64,000 bases of DNA, taken from Cognataquiflexum nitidum (GTDB taxonomy: Bacteria; Bacteroidota; Bacteroidia; Cytophagales; Cyclobacteriaceae). The position numbers and the translations under genes were made by a program. The stretch covers positions 1 through 64,000 of the forward strand of contig NZ_JAKZAM010000020.1 of NCBI RefSeq assembly GCF_022538055.1, in the 5' to 3' direction. Below are positions 25,372-31,640 of this stretch, piece after piece (positions within the stretch are counted from its first letter, which is position 1; every line of letters begins with the position of its first letter). The notes beneath the pieces are model-generated. The model ran no database searches and was not told the origin of the DNA. It was given only the letters and a program-made list of their open reading frames with translations.

Positions 25372-25896
25372 ATGGCTTTAATTAAAAGTGTAAGGGGTTT
25401 TAGCCCAATTTTTGGAGAAAACTGCTGGATGGCAGAAAACGCGACGGTGGTCGGAGATGTGGTCATGGGCAAAAATTGTACAGTGTGGTTCAATGCTGTG
25501 GTCCGTGGAGATGTACACCACATTAGGATCGGTGATGATACCAACATTCAGGACGGCGCAGTGATTCACTGCACCTATCAAAAATCCGGGACAGTAATAG
25601 GAAACAAAGTTTCTATCGCCCACAATGCCGTGGTACATGGCTGCACGATCCATGACAATGTACTGATCGGCATGGGAGCGATTATCATGGACAATGCTGT
25701 AGTCCACTCAGGCGCGGTGATTGCGGCCGGGGCGGTGATTTTGGCGGGTACAATAGTAGAGGCCAACTCCATCTATGCGGGTATGCCTGCCAAAAAAGTG
25801 AAGGAGACAGGTCCAGAAATGCTTGAAGTGATAGAGCGGACAGCAAGAAATTATCCTATGTATGCCGAATGGTTTAAAGAAAGCGACGCGAAATGA
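25372..25896 (+). CDS. gamma-class carbonic anhydrase family protein
   Basis: A 174-aa left-handed beta-helix protein of the gamma carbonic anhydrase (YrdA/CaiE) family, with hexapeptide repeats such as NATVVG, DNVLIG and AVILAG. Three candidate zinc ligands are present with family spacing: His66, His84 and His89. Members form trimers and may interconvert carbon dioxide and bicarbonate, although many YrdA-type proteins show little activity. The gene overlaps the next one by 4 bp (ATGA), so the two are translated together. Confidence 0.9.
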   Translation: MALIKSVRGFSPIFGENCWMAENATVVGDVVMGKNCTVWFNAVVRGDVHHIRIGDDTNIQDGAVIHCTYQKSGTVIGNKVSIAHNAVVHGCTIHDNVLIGMGAIIMDNAVVHSGAVIAAGAVILAGTIVEANSIYAGMPAKKVKETGPEMLEVIERTARNYPMYAEWFKESDAK

Positions 25897-26390
25897 AGGA
25901 ATTCCTAACCAAATTCAGCACCAACAGAAACATTGCCCTACTTTTTGTCCTGTTTCTGGGATTTAATCTTTGGATCTTACCAAGTATGATGCCGGGAGAA
26001 AAACCGCTTGATTTGGAGATTTTTTATTCCTCGGACTACGCCTATGACAGAATAGACGGATTCACACCTGAAATCAGGAAGAGCTACCGAATAGGTTTGA
26101 TGGTTTCGGATATGCTCTATCCATTGGTGTATGGAGCCCTGTTTTCATTCTTTATTTTCAGGCTTTGGCAAAATGAAAAGTTGGTCATTTTTCCCCTTGC
26201 CATCCTGTTGTGTGATGTCATCGAAAATATCAGCATCATCAATATTTTAAATCTATTTCCTGAAAAAAGTGACTTTTGGGGATCTCTGGCCGGAATTTCG
26301 ACAGCTGTAAAATGGACCTTTTCGACTCTAACCATTTTTATTGTTTTGACAGGTGTTTTCAAAAAAGTGTTGTTAAAAAAACAATTGTAA
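25893..26390 (+). CDS. four-helix inner-membrane protein, unknown function
   Basis: A 165-aa hydrophobic protein with about four transmembrane segments (near residues 12-32, 68-88, 97-118 and 132-155). Between the first two is an extracytoplasmic loop (LDLEIFYSSDYAYDRIDGF). No catalytic motif is recognised. Its start codon overlaps the stop of the carbonic anhydrase gene, so the two belong to one operon. The pairing suggests a role near bicarbonate or envelope physiology, but that is only inference. Confidence 0.65.
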   Translation: MKEFLTKFSTNRNIALLFVLFLGFNLWILPSMMPGEKPLDLEIFYSSDYAYDRIDGFTPEIRKSYRIGLMVSDMLYPLVYGALFSFFIFRLWQNEKLVIFPLAILLCDVIENISIINILNLFPEKSDFWGSLAGISTAVKWTFSTLTIFIVLTGVFKKVLLKKQL

Positions 26391-26663
26391 TGAAGAGGAT
26401 GATTTAATTTATAGAATAAATTCCTGACCAATCTTTTTATGATGCCTGAAAAAAGTAAGCCTTTTTAGAAAGCATGATTTACATTATTGAAAAGGTAAAA
26501 TTGAATGGACAAATATGATTCCTTAAAATCACGCTAACCATATTTTTCCAAAATTCTAATGTTTTTTGACCTCTTTATTTACCTCCGCAAGTTTCGTAAA
26601 ATGTAAATTATGCAGGGTAAATTATTTATTTGAATCAGGTCCCGAAAACTTTAACCATATTTT

Positions 26664-26694
26664 TTTGTGAATCCCCAAAAGGGGACTATTTTTA
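26664..26694 (+). promoter_or_regulatory. promoter of the amidoligase operon with inverted repeat in the spacer
   Basis: TTTG at 26664-26667, a 19-bp spacer and TATTTTTA at 26687-26694, the same -7 sequence as for the catalase-like gene. The spacer contains the inverted repeat TCCCC-AAAA-GGGGA (26672-26685), placed where a repressor could block polymerase. Transcription would begin about 17 bp before the ATG at 26718, which rules against the GTG at 26667 as start. The preceding 270 bp hold no gene. Confidence 0.65.
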
Positions 26695-26717: not shown

Positions 26718-27431
26718 ATGAAAGAGGAATATTTTAAGTGGTACTCACCCCATCTGCATAGAGACGTTCAAATGCTCACTTTTGGTCATGCGGGATATCC
26801 TATTGTATTGTACCCGACTTCTATGGGATCGTTCCATGAAAACAGAGACATGGGATTGATAGGTTCGGCAAGTTGGTTTATCCAACAAGGCCTGGTGCAG
26901 ATATTCTGTCCGGAAAGTAATGACAGGGACAGTTTTTACAACAAGCAAATCCATCCCAATCAACGGATCCAAAACCACATTGCCTATGACCACATGATCC
27001 GCCACGAGATAGTAGAGAAAATCAGATTTAATACCGCCATCGGCAAAGTGGTAGTAGCCGGCTGTAGTTTTGGTGGATACCATGCTGCTAATTTTGCATT
27101 CAGGTATCCAGGTTTTGTCAGCCATATGTTTTCAATGTCGGGAGCTTTTGAAATCCGTAATTTTATGGATGGATATAATCACGGTGATATATTTTATAAT
27201 TCGCCCTTAGAGTTTTTACCTGGCAACCATGACGGTGATTTGTGGAAAATGGACATCGTGCTCGGTACTTCCAATTGGGACATCTGCTTTGATGCCAATA
27301 TCAGACTCAGTGATGTGTTGGAAGGTAAGGGAATTCGACATTGGCTGGATGTGCGGAAGGATAAGCATCACGATTGGCCGATCTGGAAGGAGATGTTCCC
27401 CCACTATTTATCAAGAATCAAGTTCAATTAA
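26718..27431 (+). CDS. alpha/beta hydrolase (esterase-like), amidoligase operon gene 1
   Basis: A 237-aa serine hydrolase of the putative esterase type. The nucleophile elbow GCSFGG puts Ser117 in place. A candidate acid is Asp188 in SNWDICFD, and the catalytic His is 217 or 218 in DKHHDWP, the usual C-terminal signature of this group. No signal peptide is seen, so it is cytosolic. It heads a five-gene operon of ligases, with the next gene 17 bp downstream. In that setting it may hydrolyse an ester, amide or acyl intermediate, or proof-read the product; that is inference. The start is chosen from the promoter and the family N-terminus. Confidence 0.85.
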   Translation: MKEEYFKWYSPHLHRDVQMLTFGHAGYPIVLYPTSMGSFHENRDMGLIGSASWFIQQGLVQIFCPESNDRDSFYNKQIHPNQRIQNHIAYDHMIRHEIVEKIRFNTAIGKVVVAGCSFGGYHAANFAFRYPGFVSHMFSMSGAFEIRNFMDGYNHGDIFYNSPLEFLPGNHDGDLWKMDIVLGTSNWDICFDANIRLSDVLEGKGIRHWLDVRKDKHHDWPIWKEMFPHYLSRIKFN

Positions 27432-27448
27432 CCAAATACCAACCATAT

Positions 27449-28405
27449 ATGAAAAAGATAGGAATTCTGTTTGGCATGGAAGACACTTTTCCCCATGCAT
27501 TTGTCGAAAGAGTCAATGAAAAAAATGAAAAAGGAATTGTTGCAGAACCTGTTTTGATCGATAAGGTAATCCAAAACCAACTTTCTGAATATGCTGTCAT
27601 CATTGACAGGATTTCTCAGGACGTTCCTTTTTATAGGGCTTATCTGAAAAACGCCGCCTTGACGGGCACGGCAGTCATTAACAATCCCTTTTGGTGGAGT
27701 GCTGATGATAAGTTTTTTAACAATGCCCTTGCGGATCAATTGGGAGTCCCTCTTCCAAACACTGTGATTTTACCCTCTGCAGAACATCCCACAGATACCA
27801 CAGCCAAGTCCTTCAGAAACTTAAAAATGCCACTCGATTGGCAGGGGATTTTTGATTATGTAGGATTTCCTGCCTATATGAAACCCTACGCTGGTGGCGG
27901 ATGGAAAAATGTCTATCGCCTAGAAAACAAAGAGGAATTTTTCCAAAAACACAGGGAAACCGGCCAATTGGTCATGTTGCTTCAAGAGGAAATCGTATTT
28001 CAGGAATATTTCAGGGTGTATTGCCTTGGGGGCAAAGCGGTCCGAATCATGCAGTATGAACCGCGCAATCCGCACCATCTCCGCTATGTGGTCGATGGAC
28101 CTCCTGCCAGTAAAAAACTATTGGCAAAAGTGAAGGATTACACCATCAAACTTTGTGAAGGATTGGGCTATGATTTCAATACCGTAGAATTTGCTGTAAA
28201 GGACGGTGTACCTTATGCCATTGATTTTGGAAATCCTGCACCTGATGCAGATATCAACTCAGTAGGTCAAGCGAATTTTGATTGGGTAGTGGAAGAAGCT
28301 GCAAAAATGGCGATTGCCTATGCCAAATCACATAAACCCGGTCAGGTTAACCTCACTTGGGGGACTTTTATGAAAAATGCAGTCAGCTCCGCAAAAAGAT
28401 TCTGA
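27449..28405 (+). CDS. RimK/Ddl-like ATP-grasp ligase, amidoligase operon gene 2
   Basis: A 318-aa ATP-grasp enzyme that should couple ATP hydrolysis to formation of an amide or peptide bond through an acyl phosphate. ATP-binding Lys145 sits in YMKPYAGGGWKN. The FQEYFRVYCLGGKAVR segment corresponds to the central strand pair. Mg-binding residues are Glu247 in NTVEFAV and Asp259/Asn262 in AIDFGNPAPD. The N-terminal 130 residues would recognise the substrate. The gene starts 17 bp after the hydrolase and ends 3 bp before the GCS2 ligase, so it is tightly linked to both. The substrate is unknown. Confidence 0.88.
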   Translation: MKKIGILFGMEDTFPHAFVERVNEKNEKGIVAEPVLIDKVIQNQLSEYAVIIDRISQDVPFYRAYLKNAALTGTAVINNPFWWSADDKFFNNALADQLGVPLPNTVILPSAEHPTDTTAKSFRNLKMPLDWQGIFDYVGFPAYMKPYAGGGWKNVYRLENKEEFFQKHRETGQLVMLLQEEIVFQEYFRVYCLGGKAVRIMQYEPRNPHHLRYVVDGPPASKKLLAKVKDYTIKLCEGLGYDFNTVEFAVKDGVPYAIDFGNPAPDADINSVGQANFDWVVEEAAKMAIAYAKSHKPGQVNLTWGTFMKNAVSSAKRF

Positions 28406-28408
28406 TAT

Positions 28409-29518
28409 ATGAGAAAGTTACCTGTATTTACTTTAGGAGTCGAAGAAGAATATCAAATCATCGACCCCAACACCAGGGACCTGAGATCCCACATGTCCAA
28501 AATTGTAGATGGTGCCAAAATCATTCTCAAAGAACAGGTAAAGGCCGAAATGCATCAATCTGTGGTAGAAGTTGGTACCAATATCTGTCAAAACATTGCC
28601 GATGCCAGAAATGAAGTCTCTTACCTGAGAAGGAAAATCGTGGATCTTGCTGCAGAACAAAACCTAATAGTCGGGGCATCTGGAACCCACCCATTCTCAA
28701 AATGGCAGGAACAACCGATTACTGATGACCCAAGGTACCACATGATCGTCAATGAACTGCAGGATACTGCTAGGTCCAATTTGATTTTTGGACTACATGT
28801 GCATGTGGGCATAGAAAACAGGGAACTAGCGCTTCAAATAATGAATCAGGCATGCTATTTCCTTCCGCATATTTACGCCCTTTCGACCAACTCTCCTTTT
28901 TGGGAAGGGAGAAACACAGGCTTCAAAGCATTCAGAGCGCACGTCTTTGCAAAATTCCCCAGAACAGGACTTCCTGAATATTTTGATTCGGTGCAGTCTT
29001 ATGACAATTTTCTGGAGACTTTAGTCAAAACAAACTGTATCGATAACCCAAAAAAAATATGGTGGGACCTGAGGATGCATCCTTTCTTCAGCACGATCGA
29101 ATTTAGGATTTGCGATATGTGTCTGACCGTGGACGAAACGATCTGCATCACAGCATTGATCCAAGCTGTTGTGGCCAAGCTCTACAAAATGAGCATGATG
29201 AATACAAGCTTCAACATATACCGGATAGCCTTGATCAGGGAAAATAAATTCCGTGCAGCAAGGTATGGTACAGATGGGTTGATGATTGACTTTGGTCAGA
29301 AAAAAGAAGTGGCTTATAAGGAATTGATAGTGGAGCTTTTGGACTTTATTGATGATGTAGTCGATGAGCTTGGCAGCAGGCAGGAAATCAATTATGTGTA
29401 TGAAATTCTCAAAAACGGCACAGGAGCGGACAAGCAATTGGCTGTTTTTGAAGAAAATAACCATGATCTGTCCAAAGTCGTGGACTTCATCGTGGGAGAA
29501 TTCACAAAAGGAATTTGA
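28409..29518 (+). CDS. GCS2-family carboxylate-amine ligase (YbdK-like), amidoligase operon gene 3
   Basis: A 369-aa ligase of the glutamate-cysteine ligase type 2 (YbdK) family, with the glutamine-synthetase-like fold. The signature LGVEEEYQI begins at residue 9 and gives metal-binding Glu residues. LHVHVGIENRE and WWDLRMHPFFSTIEFRICD are further conserved active-site blocks. Such enzymes join an amine to a carboxylate, classically glutamate's gamma carboxyl. True glutathione synthesis is unlikely to be the whole story because two more ligases and an amidotransferase share the operon. It starts 3 bp after the ATP-grasp gene. Confidence 0.92.
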   Translation: MRKLPVFTLGVEEEYQIIDPNTRDLRSHMSKIVDGAKIILKEQVKAEMHQSVVEVGTNICQNIADARNEVSYLRRKIVDLAAEQNLIVGASGTHPFSKWQEQPITDDPRYHMIVNELQDTARSNLIFGLHVHVGIENRELALQIMNQACYFLPHIYALSTNSPFWEGRNTGFKAFRAHVFAKFPRTGLPEYFDSVQSYDNFLETLVKTNCIDNPKKIWWDLRMHPFFSTIEFRICDMCLTVDETICITALIQAVVAKLYKMSMMNTSFNIYRIALIRENKFRAARYGTDGLMIDFGQKKEVAYKELIVELLDFIDDVVDELGSRQEINYVYEILKNGTGADKQLAVFEENNHDLSKVVDFIVGEFTKGI

Positions 29519-29540
29519 TCCTACAGTCCTTTTGATTAGA

Positions 29541-29566
29541 GGTGGGGAAATATTTTTTTCCCCACC
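29541..29566 (+). other. 10-bp perfect hairpin inside the operon
   Basis: GGTGGGGAAA (29541-29550) pairs with TTTCCCCACC (29557-29566) around a 6-nt loop in the 96-bp gap after the GCS2 gene. It has no T tract after it, so it looks more like an mRNA processing or stability element than a terminator. Confidence 0.5.
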
Positions 29567-29614
29567 CAACTTTAGAAATTCTTTACCTCTTGGCCTCAAA
29601 ATCAAAAAATCACC

Positions 29615-30439
29615 ATGCAAGAAAAAATCAAAGTTGCTGTTTTGGACATGTACAATGGTAAAGCAAATCAGGGCATGCGCTGTATTCATGACATCGTTGG
29701 GAGGTTTGCAGATGAGCTGAGTCTTGAGGTTTTTGATGTCAGACAAAATGCTGATGTTCCAAACATAGAAGACTTCAACCTATATATTTCTTCAGGAGGC
29801 CCGGGTAATCCCCTTGAGGGGGATGGTGTTTGGGACACAAAATACTACCAACTGATCGATGATATTTGGGTTTGGAATAGAACAAACGAAAGAAAAAAAT
29901 ATGTTCTTTTCATCTGTCATTCCTATCAGATGGCAGTACAGCATTTTGGGCTTGCTAAAGTAACCAGGAGAAAATCCACCTCTTTTGGGGTAATGACCAT
30001 CCATAAAACCGAATCTGGGATGACAGATCCGCTATTCGAAGGATTGGACAATCCATTTTGGGCTATAGATTCCAGAGATTACCAAGTGGTGCAAGCCCAT
30101 CAGAAAAAATTCAAAGAACTGGGTGCTGAAATCATTGCACTTGAAAAAATCCGAAACCATGTAGAGTATGAAAGAGCCATCATGGCCATCAGATTTTCAC
30201 CGGAAATGGTCGGAACTCAATTCCACCCTGAAGCTGACCCCGTCGGTTTTTTGAGCCACCTCAAAAAACATGAAGTACGGGATGAAATCATTGACCTGAG
30301 GGGTAAAGCAAGGTACCTCGCCATGCTCGAACATATCGTCGAAGAGCATACAATCTATAAAACAAACGAAACCCTGATCGCAAACTTTCTGAGTCAATCG
30401 ATCGGTTTTATCAAAGAACAACAAGCGATATTTATTTAA
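29615..30439 (+). CDS. class I glutamine amidotransferase, amidoligase operon gene 4
   Basis: A 274-aa class I (triad) glutamine amidotransferase. The nucleophile is Cys101 in FICHSYQM, with His204 and Glu206 in GTQFHPEAD. The oxyanion region SSGGPGNP is at residues 59-66. About 65 residues follow the triad as a helical C-terminal extension of unknown role. It should release ammonia from glutamine for a partner ligase, or hydrolyse a gamma-glutamyl amide in the product. No synthase domain is fused, so the partner is probably one of the ATP-grasp or GCS2 enzymes in the operon. The gene lies 10 bp upstream of the second ATP-grasp-like gene. Confidence 0.88.
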   Translation: MQEKIKVAVLDMYNGKANQGMRCIHDIVGRFADELSLEVFDVRQNADVPNIEDFNLYISSGGPGNPLEGDGVWDTKYYQLIDDIWVWNRTNERKKYVLFICHSYQMAVQHFGLAKVTRRKSTSFGVMTIHKTESGMTDPLFEGLDNPFWAIDSRDYQVVQAHQKKFKELGAEIIALEKIRNHVEYERAIMAIRFSPEMVGTQFHPEADPVGFLSHLKKHEVRDEIIDLRGKARYLAMLEHIVEEHTIYKTNETLIANFLSQSIGFIKEQQAIFI

Positions 30440-30449
30440 TTATTTTCCT

Positions 30450-31640
30450 ATGATTCAGCAGCACCGGGAGTTTTTCAACCTAAACTTCAATGTGGAAAAA
30501 TACCAAGCTTTTTTGGATGACCTTGCCTCTGACTTTGACTATTTACCGACCTTCAGGGTAGCTGAGTCTCCTTTTTTTATTCCTGACAACCTCAAAGAAC
30601 AGCTAATTGAAGGTTGTCAACATGTAGTCGATTTTATCAAGAGGGAGGATTTCAATTCTTTGACTGAAAAATCGCTGAGCTTCAATTTCAATGTGCCAAA
30701 TCAAGACCAACACACTCAATTTCTTGCCATCGACTTTGGCATCTGCGAAGAGGATGGAAAGATCATTCCCAAATTAATCGAAGTGCAGGGATTTCCATCT
30801 GTGTTTAACTTTCAATACAATCTCTTTGAGAAAATAAAGAAGTCCTATCCCTACCTCTCTGAATTCACACCATATTTCAACGGTTTGGATGCTGAAGGTT
30901 ACCTGACCATTCTCAAAGAAACAATCCTAAACGGGCATAATCCTGAGGAGGTCATCCTGCTCGAGATCGAACCTGAAAAGCAAAATACAAAAATTGATTT
31001 TTACTATTGCCAAAAGGATTTGGGGGTTCCATTTGTTTGCGTTACAGAAATTATCAAAAAAGGAAAACAACTTTTTTACACCAACTCAAAAGGTGTTGAG
31101 ATCCAAGTCAAAAGGATTTATAACAGGGTGATTTTCGATGAGCTTGAGGCCAGGAAAGACTTGAACATGCAATTCTCATTTTTGGAGGAGCTGGATGTGG
31201 AATGGGCAGGACACCCAAATTGGTTTTACCGCATCAGTAAATTTATCCTTCCTTACCTGAAAGGGCCTTATTTCATTGAGACCACTTTATTGAGCGAGTT
31301 GAAGGAAATCCCCGCTGATCTGGAAAATTACGTCTTAAAGCCATTGTTTTCTTTTTCGGGCAGCGGCGTGATTTTTAATGTCAAAAAATCGGATGTTGAA
31401 GCAGTAAAAGACAAAGACCTCTTTATCCTTCAAAAAAAAGCAAAGTATGTTCCTGTTCTCCAAGCCATTGAAGGAAAAGTGAAAGCAGAGATTCGCATGT
31501 TGGCAGTATGGCCTGAGAAAAACGAGAACCCTACCCTGATCGGCAACCTTGTAAGGCTTAGCCGCGGGGAGATGATAGGTGTCAAATTTAACAAGGACAA
31601 AGATTGGGTGGGCGGAACGATAGGCTTGCTTGAAAAATAA
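30450..31640 (+). CDS. divergent ATP-grasp-like ligase, amidoligase operon gene 5
   Basis: A 396-aa protein usually left uncharacterised. The C-terminal third looks like an ATP-grasp core: Lys297 and a glycine loop in YVLKPLFSFSGSGV, Arg349 in AEIRMLAVW, and RLSRGEMIGVKFNKDKDWVGG, which resembles the end of glutathionylspermidine-synthase-like or circularly permuted ATP-grasp enzymes. The N-terminal half has AIDFGICEEDG and LIEVQGFPS, with acidic residues that could bind metal. I infer a second amide-forming ligase. It is the last gene of the operon and starts 10 bp after the amidotransferase. Confidence in the fold is moderate; the substrate is unknown. Confidence 0.65.
   Translation: MIQQHREFFNLNFNVEKYQAFLDDLASDFDYLPTFRVAESPFFIPDNLKEQLIEGCQHVVDFIKREDFNSLTEKSLSFNFNVPNQDQHTQFLAIDFGICEEDGKIIPKLIEVQGFPSVFNFQYNLFEKIKKSYPYLSEFTPYFNGLDAEGYLTILKETILNGHNPEEVILLEIEPEKQNTKIDFYYCQKDLGVPFVCVTEIIKKGKQLFYTNSKGVEIQVKRIYNRVIFDELEARKDLNMQFSFLEELDVEWAGHPNWFYRISKFILPYLKGPYFIETTLLSELKEIPADLENYVLKPLFSFSGSGVIFNVKKSDVEAVKDKDLFILQKKAKYVPVLQAIEGKVKAEIRMLAVWPEKNENPTLIGNLVRLSRGEMIGVKFNKDKDWVGGTIGLLEK

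Follow-up and report, generated by a model that had tools for sequence, protein, structure and literature searches.

Organisation of the locus and predicted activities of the ligases

A window of 64,000 nucleotides from the genome of Cognataquiflexum nitidum (contig NZ_JAKZAM010000020.1, positions 1 to 64,000; the window is the whole stretch of DNA that was analyzed) contains an operon of five intact open reading frames (ORFs), all on the plus strand between positions 26718 and 31640, which may encode a pathway to a small peptide-like metabolite (Table 1). The genes are separated by only 17, 3, 96, and 10 bp, an arrangement already described in a first-pass annotation made from the letters alone and borne out by the ORF positions. 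The catalytic residues named in that annotation (S117 of gene 1; K145, E247, and D259 of gene 2; C101, H204, and E206 of gene 4) proved to be invariant in alignments that extend down to 30-50% identity. All five genes are under strong purifying selection, with NG86 values of the ratio of nonsynonymous to synonymous substitutions (dN/dS) of 0.013-0.052, where computable, between the window genes and those of three close relatives. Genes 2 and 3 are the most conserved pair among the five.

Table 1. Features of the operon and of its upstream region in the window.
Feature	Position	Strand	Description
Gene 1	26718..27431	+	Alpha/beta-hydrolase (esterase-like), 237 aa; nucleophile S117 in GCSFGG, H218 in HDW motif
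Gene 2	27449..28405	+	RimK-like ATP-grasp ligase, 318 aa
Gene 3	28409..29518	+	GCS2 / YbdK-type carboxylate-amine ligase, 369 aa
Gene 3-gene 4 hairpin	29541..29566	+	Perfect 10-bp inverted repeat, stem GGTGGGGAAA/TTTCCCCACC, no U-run after it
Gene 4	29615..30439	+	Class I glutamine amidotransferase-fold hydrolase, 274 aa; C101-H204-E206; probably gamma-glutamyl peptidase/transferase-like
Gene 5	30450..31640	+	Predicted circularly permuted ATP-grasp ligase, 396 aa; without Pfam family
Upstream ORF	25893..26390		Membrane-like protein, 165 aa
Upstream hairpin	26672..26685		TCCCCAAAAGGGGA

Gene 1 matches the esterase/alpha-beta hydrolase family PF00756 (23.9 bits versus a cut-off of 22), its profile matches solved esterases, and S117, D188, and H218 are invariant in 29 homologues. 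Gene 2 is predicted to belong to the ATP-grasp superfamily: its profile aligns with the ATP-grasp domain of D-Ala-D-Ala ligase, and K145, E247, D259, and N262, all invariant in 43 homologues, follow the canonical ATP-grasp order of the ATP-binding lysine and the metal-binding residues. The resemblance to the RimK family is weak, the score against TIGR00768 (rimK_fam; E 4e-9, 36.2 bits) being below the curated cut-off of 143.4; the protein would thus work like an ATP-grasp ligase that is not assignable to that family. Gene 3 exceeds the cut-offs of PF04107 (GCS2; E 7e-58, 196.7 bits versus 21) and of the NCBIfam model NF010039 (carboxylate-amine ligase; 526 bits versus 371). It shares this domain and 30% identity over 332 aa with its structurally solved relative YbdK of E. 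coli, which is characterized in the title of Lehmann 2004 (cited by PMC2588565) as a carboxylate-amine ligase with gamma-glutamyl:cysteine ligase activity. However, ybdK sits among unrelated genes, without the other four.

The resemblance of gene 2 to RimK would fit ligases that extend the tail of a protein, as RimK does on ribosomal protein S6, or a component of the cell wall, and the relatives of the GCS2 carboxylate-amine ligases include the protein-tagging enzyme PafA (PMC2588565). However, no recurrent target or tag gene is found beside the operon once the flanks change, GCS2 and glutathione synthetase folds usually belong to small-molecule enzymes, and genes 1 and 4 resemble small-molecule hydrolases, so that a modification of proteins or of the cell envelope appears distinctly improbable.

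Gene 5 had been annotated as a divergent ATP-grasp protein. The ATP-grasp part of this assignment has stood, but the protein is not merely divergent. Its AlphaFold model (predicted local distance difference test score, pLDDT, 93.4) points to a circularly permuted ATP-grasp enzyme of the fold class that comprises eukaryotic glutathione synthetase, glutathionylspermidine synthase (GspS), and YgiC. The matches in the PDB are the glutathione synthetases of yeast and human, the GspS-like 3n6x, YjfC, YgiC, Gss, and Cp1B, with E values of 6e-15 to 2e-10 (Foldseek: E 6e-15 to 1m0w, 7e-12 to YjfC). D95, E111-x-Q113, K297, E347, and R349 are invariant in 50 homologues, and the metal-binding segment with D95 and E111-x-Q113 precedes K297 of the ATP site, therefore the order is circularly permuted. 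No Pfam family was matched, including those of glutathione synthetase, GSP_synth, and CP_ATPgrasp_1/2, and, judged by its sequence, gene 5 represents a divergent family of its own within the circularly permuted ATP-grasps.

The peptide-spermidine ligases YgiC and YjfC of E. coli share the fold of gene 5 and an ATP-site motif (VLKPLFSFSGSGV versus VVKPIFSREGANV). A specific form of the peptide reading would be that gene 5 joins the carboxylate of a (gamma-glutamyl) peptide to spermidine or homospermidine. At the sequence level YgiC is the closest solved relative of gene 5, it is annotated as a peptide--spermidine ligase, in agreement with the title of Pederick 2023 (cited by PMC12270671), and the fold of Gss is matched as well. 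The likeness to YgiC is, however, confined to some 80 residues that surround the ATP site (hhalign profile comparison, E 2.4e-5 over 80 residues), the E. coli genes lie in another operon, and the glutathione synthetases, which add an amino acid, give fold scores that are at least as good. In addition, an inspection of neighbouring regions, which was not exhaustive, revealed no polyamine gene. We consider a peptide-polyamine conjugate unlikely.

Conservation, replacement, and movement of the genes

Conserved gene order in relatives had been named beforehand as a check on the first-pass annotation, and the order turned out to be conserved far beyond chance. The best 80 loci, which were found through gene 3 and picked by closeness, are from Cyclobacteriaceae, Flavobacterium, and metagenome-assembled genomes. 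In 79 of them genes 1-5 have the same order and strand, and the remaining one, L080, begins inside the operon at a contig end. From a broader sample of 296 Bacteroidota genomes 40 regions centred on gene 5 were inspected: nine contain all five genes in order, 15 contain ordered subsets or a replacement, and 16 contain gene 5 alone. The flanking families c22-c24 are present at L010, L017, and L023 and missing from L039 and L056. The flanks thus change between Cyclobacteriaceae and Flavobacterium, and therefore the conserved unit consists of the five genes. One family (L137 and L133 in genomes G064 and G037; also G158 and G178) has genes 1-2-4-5 or 2-4-5 and no detectable GCS2 gene.

A phylogenetic profile at the orthologue level over the same 296 genomes revealed which genes occur together. 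Gene 2 is present in 104 genomes, 89 of which also have gene 5, while the remaining 15 all have another protein, c6, which matches PF14403 (CP_ATPgrasp_2), a bona fide circularly permuted ATP-grasp, and is encoded between genes 2 and 4. c6 is a non-orthologous replacement of gene 5; of 45 genomes with gene 5 that were screened for c6 (E < 1e-100), none contained it. Orthologues of gene 3 co-occur with gene 5 in 87 of 87 cases. The Fisher p-values for co-occurrence are extremely small, although the genomes, being related, do not represent independent samples. The association persists where the genes are scattered, and therefore it is not due to linkage alone. The operons with c6 (type B; L167-L176) encode the hydrolase, the RimK-like ligase, the CP_ATPgrasp_2 ligase, and the protein with glutamine amidotransferase (GATase) likeness, followed by a second esterase (c21) at L167, L169, and L175.

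Comparison with RecA favours horizontal transfer of the complete operon, since against this control all five genes agree in placing the Flavobacterium copies closer to the window than some copies from its own family. In G049, G146, and G186, which belong to the same family as the window, RecA is 88% identical to that of the host, but the proteins of genes 1-5 are only about 50/72/62/46/48% identical. In three genomes of genus g13, which is suggested by the named loci to be Flavobacterium, RecA is about 80% identical, and the respective values for genes 1-5 are about 70/84/80/60/68%. Thus, the five-gene unit has probably moved between bacteria as a whole; it would be less simple to assume that paralogues were lost differentially. 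The operon is entirely missing from other g13 genomes and is therefore accessory. Genes 2 and 5 were not found among 72,556 plasmids, a PHROGs search yielded no match indicating phage origin for the operon proteins apart from one weak esterase match, and no PADLOC model for anti-phage defence was matched.

Two other arrangements around gene 5 were also observed. In a distant genome (G125, L217:2637-5240) a sodium:solute symporter (PF00474) is encoded upstream of gene 5 in the same open frame, and in G272 (L218) a symporter-like gene directly upstream of gene 5 is broken into two frames. This may be a fusion, which would hint at a transported substrate. At L148, L156, L160, and L161, from two deep families, an amidohydrolase gene (c12, PF07969) is found directly upstream of an isolated gene 5.

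The near-consensus promoter proposed in the first-pass annotation was not recovered. Sigma-70-like sites are at chance level (15 observed versus 17.9 expected by shuffling), and upstream of gene 1 on this strand the best site agrees in at most 9 of 12 positions. Bacteroidetes-type promoters carry the -7 box TANNTTTG, which was not found between positions 26391 and 26717. An Rfam search of the operon and its surroundings revealed no known RNA element. The 96-nt gap between genes 3 and 4 contains a hairpin (Table 1) and folds at -23.0 kcal/mol, and strong stems are found in the equivalent gap of L002-L005. In the consensus fold three pairs are preserved by two-sided changes and several pairs are broken, so that the covariation is only suggestive of a conserved hairpin. 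It is possible that the hairpin is an element for processing or differential expression. The small upstream hairpin, about 30 bp 5' of the start of gene 1, has a terminator-like score, and such sites occur at chance frequency in the region. The upstream ORF has no Pfam match, and a similarly placed ORF is present in some Cyclobacteriaceae (L017, L023).

Bond cleavage or ammonia supply by gene 4

Gene 4 had been annotated as an ammonia-releasing amidotransferase. The class I GATase assignment is confirmed by the score against PF00117 (40.5 bits versus a cut-off of 22.8) and by the triad C101, H204, and E206, which, together with a CxSxQ motif, is invariant in 35 homologues. The release of ammonia, in contrast, is doubtful. 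The protein is not a GMP synthase, as the guaA_Nterm equivalog model gave only 22.8 bits versus the required 172. The top PDB matches of its AlphaFold model (pLDDT 91.7) are structures of Arabidopsis gamma-glutamyl peptidase 1, including that of the gamma-Glu intermediate. The two proteins share the class I GATase fold, but they are only 17-18% identical, and gene 4 has the CxSxQ motif and sits in a bacterial operon. In addition, gene 4 is replaced at four sequenced loci (L138, L139, L142, L143) and, by coordinates, in genome G255 by an M29-type peptidase gene, which takes precisely its position between genes 3 and 5. The motif Glu, His, and Asp residues of this peptidase are intact at the four loci, and an orthologue is found in 6 of the 37 gene 5 genomes without gene 4, compared to 0 of the 43 with gene 4. 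Such a replacement by a peptidase speaks for a role of gene 4 in breaking a bond and against one in ammonia supply. Taken together with the modelled fold, it is more likely that gene 4 cleaves an acyl (gamma-glutamyl) bond than that it feeds ammonia to a ligase.

If gene 4 were nevertheless a true glutaminase, the released ammonia could be used by one of the ligases for a terminal amide, and the product would be an amidated metabolite. Both the PF00117 score and the invariant C-H-E triad would be compatible with this activity, and several structures of stand-alone GATases also match the model well (1o1y, 8khs DnfC, the GAT domains of GMP synthetase). However, gamma-glutamyl peptidase 1 is matched best, and the glycine of the CxGxQ motif of the structurally matched GATases is a serine in all 35 homologues of gene 4. 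There is also no constant partner synthase, because gene 4 persists in the type B operons, which lack both genes 3 and 5 or have replacements for them, and the gene that fills its place in some lineages encodes an M29-type peptidase and not another glutaminase. An amidated product is thus improbable, and the motif together with the lack of a constant partner among genes 3 and 5 makes an ammonia-supplying role of gene 4 doubtful.

A putative peptide pathway and its place among known systems

The five genes can be combined into a self-contained biosynthesis of a small non-ribosomal peptide-like metabolite, which would follow the logic of glutathione or glutathionylspermidine synthesis with other ligases. 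Gene 3 would activate the gamma-carboxylate of glutamate with ATP and form a gamma-glutamyl-amine or a gamma-glutamyl-amino acid. Gene 5 would activate the carboxylate of this product and attach a second amine, which would be an amino acid or perhaps a polyamine, and gene 2 would append one more acidic or amino-acid residue. Gene 4 would hydrolyze a gamma-glutamyl or aminoacyl bond and thereby trim or deprotect the intermediate, and gene 1 would perform a further ester or amide hydrolysis, or an acyl transfer. It has been described that linked peptide ligases catalyze successive ligations with distinct moieties (PMC4431377). The identity and conservation of the genes, the co-occurrence of genes 2, 3, and 5, the mutual replacement of gene 5, and the positional swap of gene 4 are observed, and the folds of genes 4 and 5 are modelled; from these we infer every substrate, the order of the steps, and the product. 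In our view this gamma-glutamyl peptide assembly has an about even chance of being correct.

Several observations weigh against it. MetA and true glutamine amidotransferases match the model of gene 4 nearly as well as the peptidase. Gene 4 is missing from 37 genomes with gene 5, of which only the six mentioned above carry the M29 protein, and 12 genomes retain gene 4 without any homologue of gene 3. As gene 4 is present without gene 3 and often missing beside gene 5, it need not remove the glutamate that gene 3 adds. Gene 3 itself is absent from one gene 5-bearing family (f8) and from one further genome, and therefore the gamma-glutamyl step is not universal. Lastly, gene 2 scores below the RimK family cut-off.

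Glutathione and glutathionylspermidine synthesis (GCS2-type gamma-GCS, eukaryotic glutathione synthetase, Gss) resembles the operon in combining a GCS2 ligase with a circularly permuted ATP-grasp of the glutathione synthetase/GspS fold. However, gene 5 is only about 9-17% identical to the solved members, and the operon adds a RimK-like ligase and two hydrolases. A search of the host genome for PF04262 (GshA) gave no match; PF02955 (GSH-S_ATP) has two matches elsewhere in that genome (E 5e-18, 2.5e-5), which may be other RimK-type ligases, and none in the operon. Glutathione itself is unlikely as the product, because PF04262 GshA is missing, the operon contains extra enzymes, and it is patchy compared to the near-universal bacillithiol synthesis. 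The operon could instead represent a new route to a low-molecular-weight thiol, with genes 3 and 5 making gamma-Glu-Cys-X in organisms without GshA. This would agree with the missing PF04262 match, with the gamma-glutamylcysteine ligases in the family of gene 3, and with the modelled eukaryotic glutathione synthetase fold of gene 5. However, BshC, an enzyme of bacillithiol synthesis, occurs in 78 of 80 Bacteroidota genomes irrespective of whether they carry the operon, and therefore the operon is not needed for thiol supply. It is also patchy within genera, unlike a main redox buffer, and we judge a thiol route to be very unlikely. A replacement of bacillithiol by the operon was rejected in view of the almost general presence of BshC.

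The first-pass annotation had left room for an origin of the enzymes in ordinary pathways. This was not upheld: the curated models stayed below their cut-offs, with the exception of the functionally undefined "carboxylate-amine ligase" model matched by gene 3. The operon is thus a conserved multi-ligase metabolic operon that is not explained by GMP synthesis or by a GshA-type glutathione route. Amidoligase gene neighbourhoods have reportedly been surveyed by Iyer, Aravind and colleagues in 2009; the likeness to such neighbourhoods lies in operons that bring together hydrolases, ATP-grasp ligases, and COOH-NH2 ligases unrelated to these. To our knowledge, no product has been defined for the five-gene set. 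Literature searches by combinations of COG or family names, a coverage outside which the 2009 survey lies, yielded no paper on this operon. Gene linkage between amidoligases of different families is already known (PMC4431377). As far as checked, none of the following has been described together with a product: the combination of five genes, the circular permutation of gene 5, the substitution by c6 in type B operons, or the exchange of gene 4 for a peptidase.

Taken together, the operon might specify a new class of small peptide-amine metabolite that is widespread in Bacteroidota. Its biosynthesis would be modular, with the pair of GCS2 and circularly permuted ligase exchangeable for one circularly permuted ligase of another kind, and the GATase-fold gamma-glutamyl hydrolase for an M29-type peptidase. 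We give this proposal a little less than an even chance. The operon is conserved, probably mobile, and chemically rich, and it is present in about a third of the 296 sampled Bacteroidota genomes. Gene 5 adds a structurally modelled ligase family without a Pfam entry, and the natural replacements show which steps of the pathway are interchangeable. The operon is therefore a testable candidate source of a new peptide-like metabolite.

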